Position numbers and translations under genes: made by a program
Assembly (NCBI GenBank): GCA_027021085.1
Contig: JALUVB010000299.1
Span: 1 to 5,210 of the forward strand
DNA length: 5,210 nt
Source: a bacterium
Lineage (GTDB): Bacteria; CAIJMQ01; JAADFP01
Direction of reading: 5' to 3'
Shown here: in pieces, positions 1 to 5,210 of the stretch
How the letters are laid out: every line of letters begins with the position of its first letter
How positions within the stretch are numbered: the first letter of the stretch is position 1
Notes under the pieces: generated by a model
The model's database searches: none
What the model was told of the DNA's origin: nothing
Seen by the model: only the letters and a program-made list of their open reading frames with translations

Positions 1-50
1 TGGCAGCGAATAGCACGAATATCATTTATCCTGACCTCGTTCTTTTCTAA
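1..50 (+). pseudogene. Truncated 5' end of a second GxxExxY gene
   Basis: Bases 1-38 match 3795-3832, the start of the intact GxxExxY gene, at 37 of 38 positions; the only difference is C at 7 against T at 3801. The window opens on the second base of the ATG that corresponds to 3794. The frame reads (M)AANSTNIIYPDL, then leaves the family sequence with VLF and stops at 48-50. Similarity ends sharply after base 38, so the gene was cut by a rearrangement after about 13 codons and is not simply diverged. The conserved motif and the nuclease core are absent, so this piece cannot function. Sequence left of the window would show whether the promoter region of the intact gene was copied too. Confidence 0.85.
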
Positions 51-104: not shown

Positions 105-123
105 TGTATAGTTATGTATACAA
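104..123. promoter_or_regulatory. Perfect inverted repeat over the ATPase start codon
   Basis: TTGTATA at 104-110 and TATACAA at 117-123 are exact reverse complements separated by six bases that contain most of the ATG. A third copy of the half-site, TATACAA, lies at 83-89 within the promoter spacer. The arrangement could be an operator for a dimeric regulator, or an RNA hairpin that hides the start codon. AT-rich composition lowers its significance. Confidence 0.4.
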
Positions 124-1421
124 AAATTGGTAATTTCCTACCCAGAGAAGTCCTCCACCGCATTGAACCATTTGTTGAAAGGGATGAGATTGTGCTCATT
201 CTTGGGGCAAGACAGGTTGGTAAGACGTGTCTGCTTCGCTATATTCAGGAGAAGATTAAGGAGGAGGGTAAATCCACTTTCTTTATAGATCTGGAGGATA
301 TAGAATTAAGGGGAGCGATTAAATCACCTCAAGATTTGCTCTCTTATTTAAGGGCTGGAGGATACGAGGGGAAGCGTGCCTATGTGTTTCTTGACGAGGT
401 GCATTATATGCAGAATGCCCCCAGTATACTTAAATATTTACATGACCACTATCCAGCACTGAAATTCTTTGTAACAGGGTCTTCAAGCCTTAAACTGCGG
501 TTTAAACTTGGAGAACCTTTGACCGGGAGAAAAGTAGTCTTCAATCTATATCCGCTTAGTTTTGAGGAATATCTTGTATTTAGTGGTAATGAAAGATTGA
601 AAGAGGTTTTGAGGACTTTTAAAGATAAAAAAATACCAGAACCTTTTCTGACTCACATCTCCAAAGCCTATGAGGAATATATTATCTGGGGTGGTTATCC
701 AAAGGTGGTAATCACTCCATCCTTTGAGGTGAAGGGTGAAATATTAAAGGAAATATTTACAACATACCTGGAAAAAGAAGTAAGAGGCCTGGTTAAGGAG
801 GATAAATTTGAGCATTTTAGCCGTTTCGTTAGATTCCTTACCGTTCAGAATGGTAACCTTTTAAAGATTCTGGAAGTGTCAAAGGAACTTGGTATCCAGA
901 GAAGCACGGTTCAGAGATATCTGAGTATCCTTGAGGAAACTTTCGTGGCAAAAAGACTGCTCCCTGTGGCTAAAAATCGGCAAAAGGAACTCACGCGAAC
1001 CCCAAAGTTTTACTTTTTTGATACAGGGTTTATCAATTTTCTCAACAAGGATTTCAGGACACTTATAATACGTTCAGATGCTGGTTTTCTAATTGAAACT
1101 GCTGTTTTCACTTCTATTTTAAGAGGGTTATCTCCTCTGGAAGAGATTAATTTCTGGAGGACAAAAAGCGGACAGGAGATAGATTTCATAATTCGTAGCA
1201 GAGGAGAGCATGTTCCTGTGGAAGTTAAATGGCACAACAACCCAAGAATTACTACTTCATTAAAAAATTTCATCGGAGATTATGAATCTACTAAGGCAAT
1301 TGTATTAACAAAATCTATGTGGCAGAAGAAGAAATTCGGTTATTGCAAAATCCAATTTTTACCAGCTTTTATGGCTGATAGATTCAGGGAATTAAATTGG
1401 AAAAAATCACCGGCACTTTAA
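114..1421 (+). CDS. AAA_14/DUF4143 family ATP-binding protein
   Basis: This is a 435-residue ATPase of the widespread AAA_14 plus DUF4143 architecture, full length for the family. The N-terminal P-loop domain has Walker A GARQVGKT (31-38), Walker B YVFLDEVH (90-97) and a sensor-like TGSSS (121-125), followed by the family signatures TGR (137-139), YPLSFEEYL (146-154) and GGYP (193-196). A winged-helix-like segment lies around 245-282. The DUF4143 C-terminus contains DTGF (303-306) and a restriction-endonuclease-like core: E328, D357 in QEID, and E370/K372 in VEVK. The biological role of these proteins is poorly defined; they are common in accessory regions of bacteria and archaea. ATP binding is strongly supported. 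Nuclease activity is only suggested by the retained D-ExK residues. The ATG at 114 lacks a ribosome binding site, but the protein starts as relatives do. The last four codons (SPAL) and the stop lie inside a 25-bp repeat that recurs at 3658. Confidence 0.95.
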   Translation: MYTKIGNFLPREVLHRIEPFVERDEIVLILGARQVGKTCLLRYIQEKIKEEGKSTFFIDLEDIELRGAIKSPQDLLSYLRAGGYEGKRAYVFLDEVHYMQNAPSILKYLHDHYPALKFFVTGSSSLKLRFKLGEPLTGRKVVFNLYPLSFEEYLVFSGNERLKEVLRTFKDKKIPEPFLTHISKAYEEYIIWGGYPKVVITPSFEVKGEILKEIFTTYLEKEVRGLVKEDKFEHFSRFVRFLTVQNGNLLKILEVSKELGIQRSTVQRYLSILEETFVAKRLLPVAKNRQKELTRTPKFYFFDTGFINFLNKDFRTLIIRSDAGFLIETAVFTSILRGLSPLEEINFWRTKSGQEIDFIIRSRGEHVPVEVKWHNNPRITTSLKNFIGDYESTKAIVLTKSMWQKKKFGYCKIQFLPAFMADRFRELNWKKSPAL

Positions 1422-1429
1422 TCTGGTAT
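1405..1429 (+). repeat. 25-bp direct repeat, left copy, at ATPase 3' end
   Basis: This segment is identical over 25 bases to 3658-3682; both flanks diverge immediately. It contains the last four sense codons and the stop of the ATPase gene. Internally ACCGG (1409-1413) can pair with CTGGT (1423-1427) through one G-U pair around a nine-base loop, so it may form a small hairpin. No poly-T follows, so it does not look like an intrinsic terminator. A shared block ending a gene and repeated 2.25 kb away resembles a recombination or integration scar, but no integrase lies in the interval. Confidence 0.9.
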
Positions 1430-1477
1430 CAGTATATTTGGGTATATTAAAGAAAAAAGAACAAGTAAGAGTTTACA

Positions 1478-1546
1478 ATGAATTTGTTAACTAAAGAACT
1501 AATAAAGAAGATGCAGGTTCATCGGGGATGTATGCAAAAGGAGTAG
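1478..1546 (+). other. Frameshifted N-terminal segment of the SWIM gene
   Basis: An ATG at 1478 opens a 22-codon frame beginning MNLLTKELIKKM and ending at TAG 1544-1546. In the next frame the codons from 1513 read AGSSG directly before the M of the annotated SWIM protein at 1528. Joining the two gives LIKKM-AGSSG-MYAKG, the kind of N-terminus expected for SWIM proteins. The join needs one extra base, for example a G turning ATGCA at 1511-1515 into ATGGCA. A real one-base deletion or a sequencing error are both possible. No classical -1 slippery heptamer is visible. Only weak purine-rich sequence precedes 1478, with no clear ribosome binding site. Confidence 0.7.
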
Positions 1547-2949
1547 ATTATTTTAAGAATGGACGGGTTAGAAATATTTTGAAGATGGGGGATACAGTAA
1601 AAGCTGAAGTTATAGGTACAATGCCTCAACCTTACGGAGTCAAAATAATCTTCGATGGGGAAAGGATAAGATATTCCTGTTCCTGTCCTTATGGAGAGAC
1701 ATGTAAGCATATTATTGCTGTTTTACTGGCTCTGGAAAATAGAAAAGATAGGTTAGGTGAGGAAGTTATTGACTGGAAAGAAAATCTTTCTCGCTTTAGT
1801 AAAGAGGAACTTATTGAAATGTTGATTCCTTTTTTACATTTAGATAAAGACTTAAAAGTTACTCTTCTTAGAGGAGTATCTGATAAAGGGAAGGATACTT
1901 CGTTGGAGACATATCGTGAATACTGGGATGAAACGAAGTCTCTACTGGAGGAATTCCAATCTTACGGTGGGGGAGCCGAAGAAGATGAGGATACAATATA
2001 TTACAACTTGGAGAAGATTACAGAATTGTTTAAAGGAGGTAAACTTTCTACTGAAATAAAGAAAGAGTTCATAGATAGTATGCTTGATTACTATCTTGGT
2101 GGAAATACCGGTCTGGATGATCTTCTTATCGACTCTGTTTTTGAAATAGCTGAGAACAGGGAAGACTGGCTCCATATTATCGAACGGCTGAGGGAAACAA
2201 ATGACAGTTGGGATAAGAAGTTGATAATGGACATATACCGTGACCATCTGAATGATAAGGAGAAGTATCTGGAAGAAAGGATGAGGGAACTGGAATATGG
2301 AATGGATTACTATGACCTGGCAGAGTTTTATAAGGAGAATGGTGAGGAAGAAAAGGCAGTAGAGATTGCTCAAGAGGGTGCGATAAAGGGTAAGGGGAGA
2401 AAAATAGAGCTGTATGAATTGCTTTTTGAGTATTTTAAGGGAAGGGATTATGAAAAAGCATTGAAATACTTGAGAGAAATATTCCAGGAGAAAATGTCTC
2501 TGGATAATTACAAAAGGCTCATCGGCTTTTCTGGAGAAAAAGAAAGAGATTTAGCCTGGGCATTATCTTTGTTGAATAAGCGGAGAGAATGGGGTGTTCT
2601 GGCTCAGATTGATTTGCATGAGGGAAGGTACGAAAATGTTCTAAAGTACGTGATGGATAAGAATTATGATAGCTTTTTTCACAGCAAGGAAGGTTTTGCT
2701 GAGGAGATAAAAGATAAGTACCCCTTAGAGATTATCAAATTTTACAAGGAAAAAGTTCTTAGATTTATAGAACAGAAAAGTAGGAGAAGTTACCGGGAGG
2801 CAGTATTCTATCTGGGAAGAATTAAACGGATATATTTGGAAATACTCAAAGACAAAGTTTCCTTTAAAAAATATATCCAGGAGTTAAAACAGCAATATGC
2901 AAATCGGCCGGCTTTTCTTGATGAGGTAAAGAGAATAGATAATACATGA
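1528..2949 (+). CDS. SWIM zinc-finger protein with helical C-terminus
   Basis: The open frame encodes 473 residues. The N-terminal part has the SWIM zinc-binding signature CxCx5CxH, with C51, C53, C59 and H61 in the segment CSCPYGETCKH. This domain is known from other proteins to bind DNA or mediate protein contacts. Residues from about 75 onward are strongly charged and predicted helical. The region around 262-330 (DLAEFYKENGEEEKAVEIA, then YEKALKYLREIF) resembles tetratricopeptide-like helical pairs. The C-terminal YIQELKQQYANRPAFLDEVKRI-like ending is also typical of bacterial SWIM proteins of this type. No enzyme domain is recognisable and the function is unknown. The start at 1528 is the first in-frame ATG after a stop at 1492-1494 and has only GGGG directly abutting it, so it is weak. 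The original start was probably 1478, now separated by a frameshift. The gene lies within the segment bracketed by the 25-bp repeats, 22 bp before the toxin-antitoxin promoter. Confidence 0.88.
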   Translation: MYAKGVDYFKNGRVRNILKMGDTVKAEVIGTMPQPYGVKIIFDGERIRYSCSCPYGETCKHIIAVLLALENRKDRLGEEVIDWKENLSRFSKEELIEMLIPFLHLDKDLKVTLLRGVSDKGKDTSLETYREYWDETKSLLEEFQSYGGGAEEDEDTIYYNLEKITELFKGGKLSTEIKKEFIDSMLDYYLGGNTGLDDLLIDSVFEIAENREDWLHIIERLRETNDSWDKKLIMDIYRDHLNDKEKYLEERMRELEYGMDYYDLAEFYKENGEEEKAVEIAQEGAIKGKGRKIELYELLFEYFKGRDYEKALKYLREIFQEKMSLDNYKRLIGFSGEKERDLAWALSLLNKRREWGVLAQIDLHEGRYENVLKYVMDKNYDSFFHSKEGFAEEIKDKYPLEIIKFYKEKVLRFIEQKSRRSYREAVFYLGRIKRIYLEILKDKVSFKKYIQELKQQYANRPAFLDEVKRIDNT

Positions 2950-2964
2950 AAAGCTTTGCTACAT

Positions 2965-2980
2965 TTGTGCCTTGACACAA
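2965..2980. promoter_or_regulatory. Inverted repeat over the -35 of the toxin-antitoxin promoter
   Basis: TTGTG (2965-2969) and CACAA (2976-2980) are exact reverse complements with a six-base spacer, and they cover the -35 element. A second pair, ACATTT (2961-2966) and AAATGT (2987-2992), flanks the same region. Ribbon-helix-helix antitoxins usually repress their own operon from such operators, so this is a plausible autoregulatory site. The arms are short and the call is inference. Confidence 0.4.
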
Positions 2981-3000
2981 TTAAGTAAATGTGGCATTAT
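2972..3000 (+). promoter_or_regulatory. Promoter of the toxin-antitoxin operon
   Basis: A perfect -35 TTGACA (2972-2977) is followed, after an ideal 17-bp spacer, by CATTAT (2995-3000), which matches the -10 consensus at four of six bases. TG at 2992-2993 sits at the extended -10 position. Transcription would start near 3007, right at the ribosome binding site, giving a leader of about 16 bases. This is the best promoter in the window. It also argues against translation starting at the ATG at 2972, which lies inside the -35 element. Confidence 0.7.
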
Positions 3001-3006
3001 CATAGT

Positions 3007-3015
3007 GGAGGAGGT
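3007..3015 (+). promoter_or_regulatory. Strong ribosome binding site of the antitoxin
   Basis: GGAGGAGGT ends seven bases before the ATG at 3023. It fixes the antitoxin start at 3023 instead of the longer possibility at 2972. It is the only strong Shine-Dalgarno sequence directly ahead of a gene start in the window, so the antitoxin is probably translated much more efficiently than its neighbours, as expected for an unstable antitoxin. Confidence 0.88.
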
Positions 3016-3022
3016 AATAAGG

Positions 3023-3271
3023 ATGAAAACAAAGGCTAAAGTGAAAAGAGAAAGGTTAAGTATTGATGTATCCCCCGAGGAGCACAGAAAGATAAAAGCA
3101 TATTCTGCTATTTACGGTAAAACCATGCGGGAATATGCTCTTGAAATAATACGGGAAAGATTGAGACAGGAGGAAGAGAGATTACAGCTTTTAGGCATAA
3201 CTACCAATGTAGGAGAAGTGTTAAAGGAGGTATGGGATAACGAAAAGGATGCAGAGTATGACAGAATATAG
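3023..3271 (+). CDS. Ribbon-helix-helix (CopG-type) antitoxin
   Basis: This 82-residue protein fits the ribbon-helix-helix antitoxin pattern. A short strand RLSIDVSP (11-18) follows a basic N-terminus (KTKAKVKRER). It is followed by helix A (18-32) and helix B (KTMREYALEIIRERLRQEEER, about 33-53). The acidic tail containing VWDNEKDAEYDRI (70-82) resembles the toxin-binding end of antitoxins paired with MazF/PemK toxins. Known relatives bind their operator as dimers and wrap the tail over the toxin to block it. The start at 3023 is preferred over an upstream ATG at 2972 because of the strong ribosome binding site and because 2972 lies within the promoter. The gene overlaps the toxin gene by 14 bp, a coupling typical of such pairs. 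It is not an AbrB-fold MazE, so the pair is a MazF toxin with a ribbon-helix-helix partner. Confidence 0.92.
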   Translation: MKTKAKVKRERLSIDVSPEEHRKIKAYSAIYGKTMREYALEIIRERLRQEEERLQLLGITTNVGEVLKEVWDNEKDAEYDRI

Positions 3272-3596
3272 GCCTGGAGACGTAGTTCTTGTGGAGGTGG
3301 TTTTTTCTGAAGGGATAGGGAGCAAAAAGCGTCCGGCTTTAGTAATTAGCAGTAACCATTACCATAGAAATAGAAATGAAGTAATTATTGCCGCTATTAC
3401 CAGCAATATAAAAAGAGAGTTATTTGGGGATACTAAGATAGAAAACTGGAAAGAAGCGGGTTTAATATATCCTTCTCTGGTGACAGCAATTGTTCAAACA
3501 ATAAAAGCAAGTATGATAGCCAGAAAGTTAGGCGCTCTTCCTCAAGAAGATTTTAGGAAAGTGAAAAACAACCTGCAAAAATCAATGTGTTTTTAA
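3258..3596 (+). CDS. MazF/PemK-family endoribonuclease toxin
   Basis: The product is a 112-residue toxin of the MazF/PemK fold, which cleaves RNA at short sequence motifs and halts growth when the antitoxin is degraded. Family features are the opening YRPGDVVLVEV, the block KKRPALVIS (23-31) with the conserved Arg-Pro, and AAITSNI (45-51). R25 and T48 fall where the catalytic Arg and Thr of Bacillus MazF (EndoA) lie. The C-terminal KLGALPQEDFRKVKNNL is the usual family ending, so the gene looks intact. An ATG at 3249 in the same frame would add three residues. 3258 is chosen because AAAAGG at 3243-3248 is then correctly spaced and the product begins like its relatives. Translation is probably coupled to the overlapping antitoxin gene. 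Confidence 0.93.
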   Translation: MTEYRPGDVVLVEVVFSEGIGSKKRPALVISSNHYHRNRNEVIIAAITSNIKRELFGDTKIENWKEAGLIYPSLVTAIVQTIKASMIARKLGALPQEDFRKVKNNLQKSMCF

Positions 3597-3657: not shown

Positions 3658-3682
3658 AATCACCGGCACTTTAATCTGGTAT
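3658..3682 (+). repeat. 25-bp direct repeat, right copy
   Basis: This is identical to 1405-1429, where the same bases form the 3' end of the ATPase gene. Here the copy lies in non-coding DNA, 61 bp after the toxin stop and about 100 bp before the GxxExxY start. The preceding bases show no ATPase coding sequence, so only the last few codons were carried over. Together the copies bracket the SWIM gene and the toxin-antitoxin operon. Confidence 0.9.
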
Positions 3683-3726
3683 TATTATGTCTGTAAAAGG
3701 GAAGTGTGCTTGGTGTCCAGATAGAG

Positions 3727-3784: not shown

Positions 3785-4180
3785 ATGAGCGAAATGGCAG
3801 TGAATAGCACGAATATCATTTATCCTGACCTCTCATACAAAATAATGGGGGCGATATTTGAGGTGCATAAAACCTTAGATCCTGGGTTTAAAGAATCTAT
3901 TTATGAAAAAGCATTGATTAAAGAATTTACACTTCGTGGATTTAAAATAGAAGTACAGAAATCTATTCCTGTAATTTATAAAGGAGAAAAAGTTGGCTTG
4001 CATAAGTTAGACTTAGTCGTTGAAGATAAACTTGTCATCGAATTGAAAGCTGTTGAGGCTTTTTCTCCTCATCATAGAAACCAGCTTTTGTCTTACCTAA
4101 AAGCAGGTGGGTATAAACTTGGCATTTTAGTAAACTTCTCAAAAAGTAAAGTGGAGTATTCCCGTGTTGTTGTTACTTAA
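3785..4180 (+). CDS. GxxExxY family PD-(D/E)XK-like protein
   Basis: The 131-residue product carries the motif that names the family, GFKESIY (34-40), after the characteristic NIIYPDLSYKIMGAIFEVHKTL. The nuclease-like core is visible: D76 in LDLVV, and E86 and K88 in IELKA. Q100 and the YLKAGGY stretch lie in the next helix, and the usual ending LGILVNF (112-118) is present. The length is normal. Relatives are small proteins of the PD-(D/E)XK superfamily with unproven function. The core residues are compatible with catalysis but do not demonstrate it. Either ATG 3785 or ATG 3794 could start the protein; neither has a good ribosome binding site. The broken copy at the left edge is conserved from the second ATG, which hints at 3794. 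The gene lies 39 bp before cas1 in the same direction, where a cas4 nuclease gene is often found. Confidence 0.93.
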   Translation: MSEMAVNSTNIIYPDLSYKIMGAIFEVHKTLDPGFKESIYEKALIKEFTLRGFKIEVQKSIPVIYKGEKVGLHKLDLVVEDKLVIELKAVEAFSPHHRNQLLSYLKAGGYKLGILVNFSKSKVEYSRVVVT

Positions 4181-4219
4181 TTCGGTTTTATTTGTCTTTG
4201 TTCGTGTAATCCTAAAAAC

Positions 4220-5210
4220 ATGAAAAAAACCATCTATATCTTTTCTAACGGAGAACTGCACCGTAAACAAAACACCCTTTATTTTGAGAATGAGCGGGGA
4301 AAGAAATACATCCCGGTGGAGAACACAGGGGAGCTGATGATATTTGGCGAGGTTACCATAAACAAAAAGCTCCTGGATTTCCTATCGCAGAAGGAGATAA
4401 TCTTACATTTCTATAATTATTATGGCTATTATTCCGGAACCTTTTATCCAAGAGAACATTACAATTCGGGATTTATGATACTCAAGCAGGCAGAGTTCTA
4501 TCTTGACGAGGGGAAAAGACTTCTCTTAGCCAGGAAGTTTGTGGAGGGTGCAATCTCAAATATCTTGAAAGTTCTCTCCTATTATAGAAACAGAGGAAAA
4601 GATTTGTCCCGGAAGATAGGAGATATAGAGCATCTTACTTCTTCTCTGGGGAGTTGTGGCTCGGTGGAAGAGCTTATGGCAATTGAGGGGAATTGCAGGG
4701 ATTACTATTACGATACTTTTGACACTATAATTGATAATGAGGAGTTTTCCTTCTCCCGCAGGACAAAGAGACCCCCGCGGAACAGGCTCAATGCTCTTAT
4801 AAGTTTTGGGAATAGTCTTATTTACACTACTGTGCTTTCAGAAATTTATAAAACACATCTTGACCCGCGCATAGGCTTTCTACATACTACAAACTTTAGG
4901 AGATTCACCCTGAACCTGGATGTGGCAGAAATTTTTAAACCTATTATTGTAGATAGAATAATCTTCACTCTCCTGAATAAAAAAATGCTTTCTGCTAAAG
5001 ATTTTATGAATAGACTGGGTGGGATTTACTTGAAAGAAAAGGGACAGAAGGTGTTTGTGGAGAAATTTGATGAAAGACTAAGAACTACGATTGCTGATAA
5101 AGGGTTAGGAAGAAATATATCCTACAGGACAGTTATCCGGAGGGAACTTTACAAGCTGGAAAAACACTTGATGGAAGACAGAGAGTATAAACCTTTCGTG
5201 GCGAAATGGT
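4220..5210 (+). CDS. cas1b: CRISPR-associated integrase Cas1b, 3' end cut by window
   Basis: The frame stays open from ATG 4220 to the last base, giving 330 residues. The start MKKTIYIFSNGEL and the following RKQNTLYFE match the Cas1b subfamily, associated mainly with type I-B CRISPR systems. Cas1 with Cas2 inserts new spacers into the CRISPR array. The N-terminal beta domain covers roughly 1-85. The helical catalytic domain keeps the metal-binding residues E156 (LMAIEGNCR), H222 (GFLHTT) and E237 in LNLDVAEIFKP, corresponding to E141, H208 and D221 of E. coli Cas1. Other typical blocks are NALISFGNSLIY (191-202) and PIIVDRIIF. The ending YKPFVAKW is close to the usual family terminus, so only a few residues should be missing. 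No ribosome binding site is seen, but the N-terminal match supports the ATG. No in-frame stop or frameshift was found, so it is probably functional. cas2 and the repeat array would be expected downstream. Confidence 0.95.
   Translation, partial: MKKTIYIFSNGELHRKQNTLYFENERGKKYIPVENTGELMIFGEVTINKKLLDFLSQKEIILHFYNYYGYYSGTFYPREHYNSGFMILKQAEFYLDEGKRLLLARKFVEGAISNILKVLSYYRNRGKDLSRKIGDIEHLTSSLGSCGSVEELMAIEGNCRDYYYDTFDTIIDNEEFSFSRRTKRPPRNRLNALISFGNSLIYTTVLSEIYKTHLDPRIGFLHTTNFRRFTLNLDVAEIFKPIIVDRIIFTLLNKKMLSAKDFMNRLGGIYLKEKGQKVFVEKFDERLRTTIADKGLGRNISYRTVIRRELYKLEKHLMEDREYKPFVAKW

Follow-up and report, generated by a model that had tools for sequence, protein, structure and literature searches.

Type I-B CRISPR loci normally carry the adaptation genes in the order cas4–cas1–cas2. 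Cas4, a protein of about 165 amino acids (aa), combines a RecB-type nuclease core with four conserved cysteines that form an iron-sulphur cluster, and its representative SSO0001 (PDB 4ic1) is a 5′–3′ exonuclease (PMC3466216). The GxxExxY family (TIGR04256; PF13366) is abundant and uncharacterised; one member, found beside a CRISPR-like reverse transcriptase, was called cas4 by another program (PMC8934634). Here we analyse a window of 5,210 nucleotides that forms the whole of contig C299 in a draft bacterial genome of 1.93 Mb (307 contigs, 93.9% complete). Its six genes all lie on the forward strand (Table 1). The window agrees with the type I-B module in having a Cas1b that scores above the curated cut-off and falls in the same cas1 clade, but the gene preceding cas1 is a GxxExxY gene, not cas4. 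We consider it most probable, at roughly 0.7, that this gene is a passenger inserted in the gap between cas4 and cas1 of a type I-B locus, and not an adaptation gene.

Table 1 Features of the 5,210-nucleotide window
Feature	Position	Strand	Remarks
38-bp copy of GxxExxY 5′ end	1–38	+	truncated by contig end
AAA_14/DUF4143 ATPase gene	114–1421	+	PADLOC candidate PDC-S01; cargo
36-bp direct repeat, first copy	1405–1440	+	3′ end of the ATPase gene
SWIM zinc-finger protein gene	1528–2949	+	weak PADLOC PDC-S62
ParD-like antitoxin gene	3023–3271	+	in-frame ATG at 3023 within ORF 2972–3271
PemK/MazF-like toxin gene	3249–3596	+	pairs with the ParD-like gene
36-bp direct repeat, second copy	3658–3693	+	91 bp 5′ of the GxxExxY start codon
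GxxExxY gene, PD-(D/E)XK nuclease family, 131 aa	3785–4180	+	D76/E86/K88/Q100/Y104 intact
Partner of 38-bp direct repeat, within GxxExxY gene	3795–3832	+	contains CACGAA at 3808–3813
GxxExxY–cas1 spacer, 39 bp	4181–4219	+	contains TTCGTG at 4201–4206
cas1b (type I-B CRISPR integrase)	4220–5209	+	complete except stop codon

The GxxExxY protein and its cas1b neighbour

The window protein matches Pfam PF13366 (PDDEXK_3; E = 1.8e-38) and scores 139.5 bits against NCBIfam TIGR04256 (cut-off 35), covering positions 2–116 of the 116-position model. It is a full-length family member with every invariant residue present: G34, E37, Y40, D76, E86, K88, Q100 and Y104 are the same in 18 relatives. The core residues D76, E86-x-K88 and Q100-x3-Y104 are common to Cas4 (TIGR00372; SSO0001), and in a profile comparison the D, E-x-K and Q-x3-Y motifs of the two families align (E = 1.7e-5, probability 79%). 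The Cas4 comparison set retains C16, C154, C157 and C163, whereas the window protein is shorter and contains no cysteine at all, and therefore lacks the iron-sulphur cluster. The Cas4 profile TIGR00372 does not match it at E = 0.001, and a sequence search of the PDB returned no relative. An AlphaFold2 model (pLDDT 93.3) has Cas4 SSO0001 as its best match among solved folds (Z = 10.2 over 99 residues, rmsd 3.4; next match 8.1), with a Foldseek E-value of 8.8e-5. Such a likeness, seen in a predicted model, is no proof of shared function. The description that suits it best is that of a GxxExxY-family protein with a RecB/Cas4-type nuclease core, and it is probably a metal-dependent nuclease.

The cas1 gene scores 476 bits against the Cas1b model TIGR03641 (cut-off 304) and spans the full model, positions 1–324, in 330 codons; its catalytic E, H and D regions agree with those of five relatives. 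The contig, which ends at position 5210, stops with the last cas1 codon; this leaves the gene without its stop codon and puts cas2, cas4 and the array off the contig. In the draft genome, nothing exceeded the cut-off for cas2 or for cas4 (TIGR00372), although one weak match to cas4 below the cut-off lies elsewhere, and a search confined to ATTGAAAC-type repeats found no CRISPR array. The remainder of the locus therefore lies outside the bin and, as cas2 is missing too, the missing cas4 is uninformative.

A sequence-only reading of this DNA had described a GxxExxY gene 39 bp before cas1b, with D76 and E86/K88 preserved, no Cas4-type cysteine cluster and a second, broken copy nearby, and all of this holds. 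The broken copy is the sole other GxxExxY trace in the draft genome and is 97% identical to its partner inside the intact gene (BLAST E = 6e-11). The pair encloses the ATPase gene, the SWIM gene and the toxin–antitoxin genes, and within it the 36-bp repeat pair (89% identity) encloses the SWIM and toxin–antitoxin genes. This nesting suggests that the cargo block may have been built stepwise, with the GxxExxY gene already beside cas1 beforehand. The window has no Rfam match.

Gene order at cas1b loci and kinship of the GxxExxY proteins

We fetched 62 cas1b loci for comparison, 60 of them with enough upstream sequence, and corrected the cas4-position counts for five loci in which stop-to-stop open reading frames overlapped. 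The cas4–cas1–cas2 order that the sequence-only reading took to be usual in type I-B is confirmed across this set. At 58 of the 60 loci cas4 lies upstream of cas1 on the same strand, in about 50 of them immediately before it; the exceptions are L035, with cas4 downstream on the opposite strand, and L063, in which no cas4 was found. The distance from the cas4 stop to the cas1 start is between −4 and 113 bp in 41 of the 48 loci measured.

Within the fetched flanks, a GxxExxY gene occurs in only one of the 62 loci, L068. It belongs to a genome of an unrelated phylum (G112), in which one cas1b occurs in 7 genomes, and reads cas3–cas4–GxxExxY–cas1–four-helix bundle–cas2. Its cas4 is intact, cysteines included. 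When the places of GxxExxY and Cas1 genes were compared by hand, no third adjacency was found among those listed, which came from up to 386 genomes for GxxExxY and 343 for Cas1; the position of the window gene directly 5′ of cas1b is thus matched in one further genome.

GxxExxY genes are scattered, occurring in 90 of 386 genomes, sampled at roughly one per family, with up to 11 copies in a genome; a congeneric genome (G001) has none. Eight records turned up in 72,556 plasmids, all below 60% identity, and carriage of the window lineage on plasmids is therefore not evident; viral contigs scanned with a two-sequence GxxExxY alignment held no relative. The window protein was compared with more than 150 listed GxxExxY genes, from 83 of the 386 genomes; its best match is that of L068 (60% identity, E = 7e-44; next best E = 2e-36), with which it forms a clade supported at 100/99. 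None of the remaining 28 close-match loci has a cas gene within 1.5 kb.

That the protein most similar to ours is the only other one adjacent to cas1 invites the reading that this lineage is linked to cas1b, having entered once and moved with the module from one phylum to another, either tolerated as a hitchhiker or weakly helpful as a neighbour. A Cas1 clade of window and L068 is not rejected (p-AU = 0.136). The best Cas1 tree, however, groups the window with L038 and L043 (support 85/79), its closest Cas1 relatives and both without a GxxExxY gene, and places it with L068 in 0% of bootstrap trees; with families represented by about one genome each, there may also be closer GxxExxY relatives that lie elsewhere than beside cas1. 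We regard such a linkage as unlikely, though the strongest of the alternatives.

Less probable still is that the protein replaces or assists Cas4, using its Cas4-like core without an iron-sulphur cluster to trim prespacers for Cas1–Cas2. An accessory role in the place of cas4 had been raised in the sequence-only reading, and the position directly before cas1 on the same strand, the predicted fold, the aligned motifs, the lack of a visible cas4 in the genome and the sisterhood of the two cas1-adjacent copies would all suit it. Yet the only other GxxExxY gene found directly upstream of cas1b, that of L068, lies in a locus that keeps a normal cas4. A single occurrence in 62 loci, and two adjacencies among the listed genomes that were cross-checked, also argue against a substitute, and with cas2 missing from the bin the absence of cas4 is no sign of its loss. 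The accessory idea is therefore unsupported, because the L068 cas4 is intact and because relatives carry unrelated cargo in the same gap. Two points keep a link to adaptation alive: the sister relationship of the GxxExxY genes and a Cas4-like fold, as predicted, that dispenses with the cysteines.

An assembly artefact joining unrelated pieces through repeats is very improbable: the contig is short (5.2 kb), with the 38-bp repeat exactly at its start and the 36-bp repeat internal, but the join itself holds no long repeat present elsewhere in the contig, and the same gene order occurs in an independent genome (L068).

Inverted stutter repeats around GxxExxY genes

Upstream of many GxxExxY genes we found runs of short repeated motifs, for example CACGAAT, CCACAGA or ACGCGAAT, with their reverse complements downstream. 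We compared the upstream flank of each gene with its own downstream flank for 61 GxxExxY genes (from L068, L148–L202, L233–L272 and the window), counting local scores of at least 26. Inverted repeats at this score flank 39 of the 61, compared with 4 of 157 other genes from these loci (Fisher p = 8e-23), and the four include immediate neighbours that have the arm in common. At distant positions within these loci the signal appeared in 2 of 35 cases, and the corresponding counts are 2 of 103 for cas1, 3 of 90 for cas2 and 1 of 84 for cas4. Near-perfect arms occur in L170 (TTTAGCCACAGATGCAGGGGATACA and TGTATCCCCTGCATCTGTGGCTAAA) and in L167 (30 bp). Matches between the flanks in direct orientation occur as well, in 13 of 38 cases, so the stutter motifs can occur both ways round on one side. 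Arms vary between the GxxExxY copies of a single genome, which sets these units apart from a classical transposon with fixed ends. A description of this enclosure was not found in the literature searched.

In L068, one of the 39, the cas4 stop codon is followed immediately by the first base of the first arm, and the cas1 ATG marks the end of the last complementary copy (TATTCGCACC). This arm-to-arm layout looks like a unit inserted into an otherwise near-zero gap. In the window, flank comparison gave a score of 19 (p = 0.21), which is not a significant inverted repeat; the copy there retains only CACGAA and TTCGTG (Table 1), whose pairing is not significant. The TTCGTG may be a remnant of a downstream stutter arm, in which case the arms of this copy would have decayed.

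Probable passengers in the cas4–cas1 gap

Other cas1b loci hold unrelated genes in the same gap. In the two closest Cas1 relatives of the window it contains a pair of four-helix-bundle genes flanking a VapBC-like pair (L038) and a transporter gene (L043). An AAA_14-like ATPase gene occupies it in L075, and AbrB/PIN genes in L078.

These observations lead us to favour the passenger reading, which accounts for most of the evidence: cas4 is present in L068, relatives carry cargo in the gap, the inverted-repeat statistic is strong for the family as a whole, and the family is multicopy and patchy. Chance landing of a mobile gene, the other possibility raised from the sequence alone, thus comes out better supported, with adjacency to cas1 in two genomes only. 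Against it stand the window flanks without a significant inverted repeat, the lack of a cas4 on the contig or in the remaining draft genome, the GxxExxY clade of window and L068, which is unexpected under random insertion, and stutter arms that are specific to each copy, unlike classical transposon ends. The clade could stem from a single shared insertion that was carried along with the module, or from two separate ones out of one donor lineage.

GxxExxY copies usually sit between imperfect inverted-repeat arms made of short stutters (for example CACGAAT ... ATTCGTG). In the course of events that we propose, the whole unit of arm, gene and arm would drop into intergenic positions. The window copy would once have had such arms, and its gap would later have gained the ATPase, the SWIM gene and the ParD–MazF pair between direct repeats. 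An ordinary cas4 is predicted just to the left of the contig start. A role of the GxxExxY protein in moving its own unit is conjectural.

Four-helix-bundle (S23) genes are known as 23S rRNA intervening sequences. Like GxxExxY genes they occur in cas loci and within inverted stutter repeats (arms around 4 of 6), but the proteins are unrelated; a mobility mechanism common to both may be suspected from this shared setting. More broadly, and as a tentative idea that we hold to be doubtful, GxxExxY genes and probably four-helix-bundle genes could be cargo or mobility genes of undescribed small elements with locus-specific inverted stutter repeats, the GxxExxY nuclease, with its Cas4/RecB-like core, having its own hairpin arms as substrate and such units settling in CRISPR adaptation modules among other places. 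The regular position of an abundant family inside such repeats offers a handle on its spread and on a possible nuclease substrate. It also calls for caution: a nuclease gene that adjoins cas1 need not be an adaptation gene, and the cas4–cas1 gap gathers passengers.

Several smaller observations concern the same loci. Four-helix-bundle genes lie in the cas operons of L037, L038, L061 and L068, in the cas1–cas2 or cas4–cas1 intervals. Homologues of the SWIM zinc-finger gene lie between cas3 and cas4 in L061 (7613–9076) and beside cas1–cas2 and an array in L129 (8230–10077), so that three unrelated genomes, including that of the window, carry the gene in or beside a cas locus. We rejected it as a constant cas neighbour, as it is cas-linked in just 3 of about 23 places. 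L096, from Candidatus Aerophobetes, contains a cas1 relic (10001–10087) of 29 aa, 79% identical to the window Cas1 and then interrupted by a stop, which is followed by a single CRISPR-like repeat. In L068, a repeat of about 48 bp (GTATTCGCACCATGAGAATAAATTTG...) stands in tandem in the cas1 leader (9855–9960), up to the cas1 start codon.
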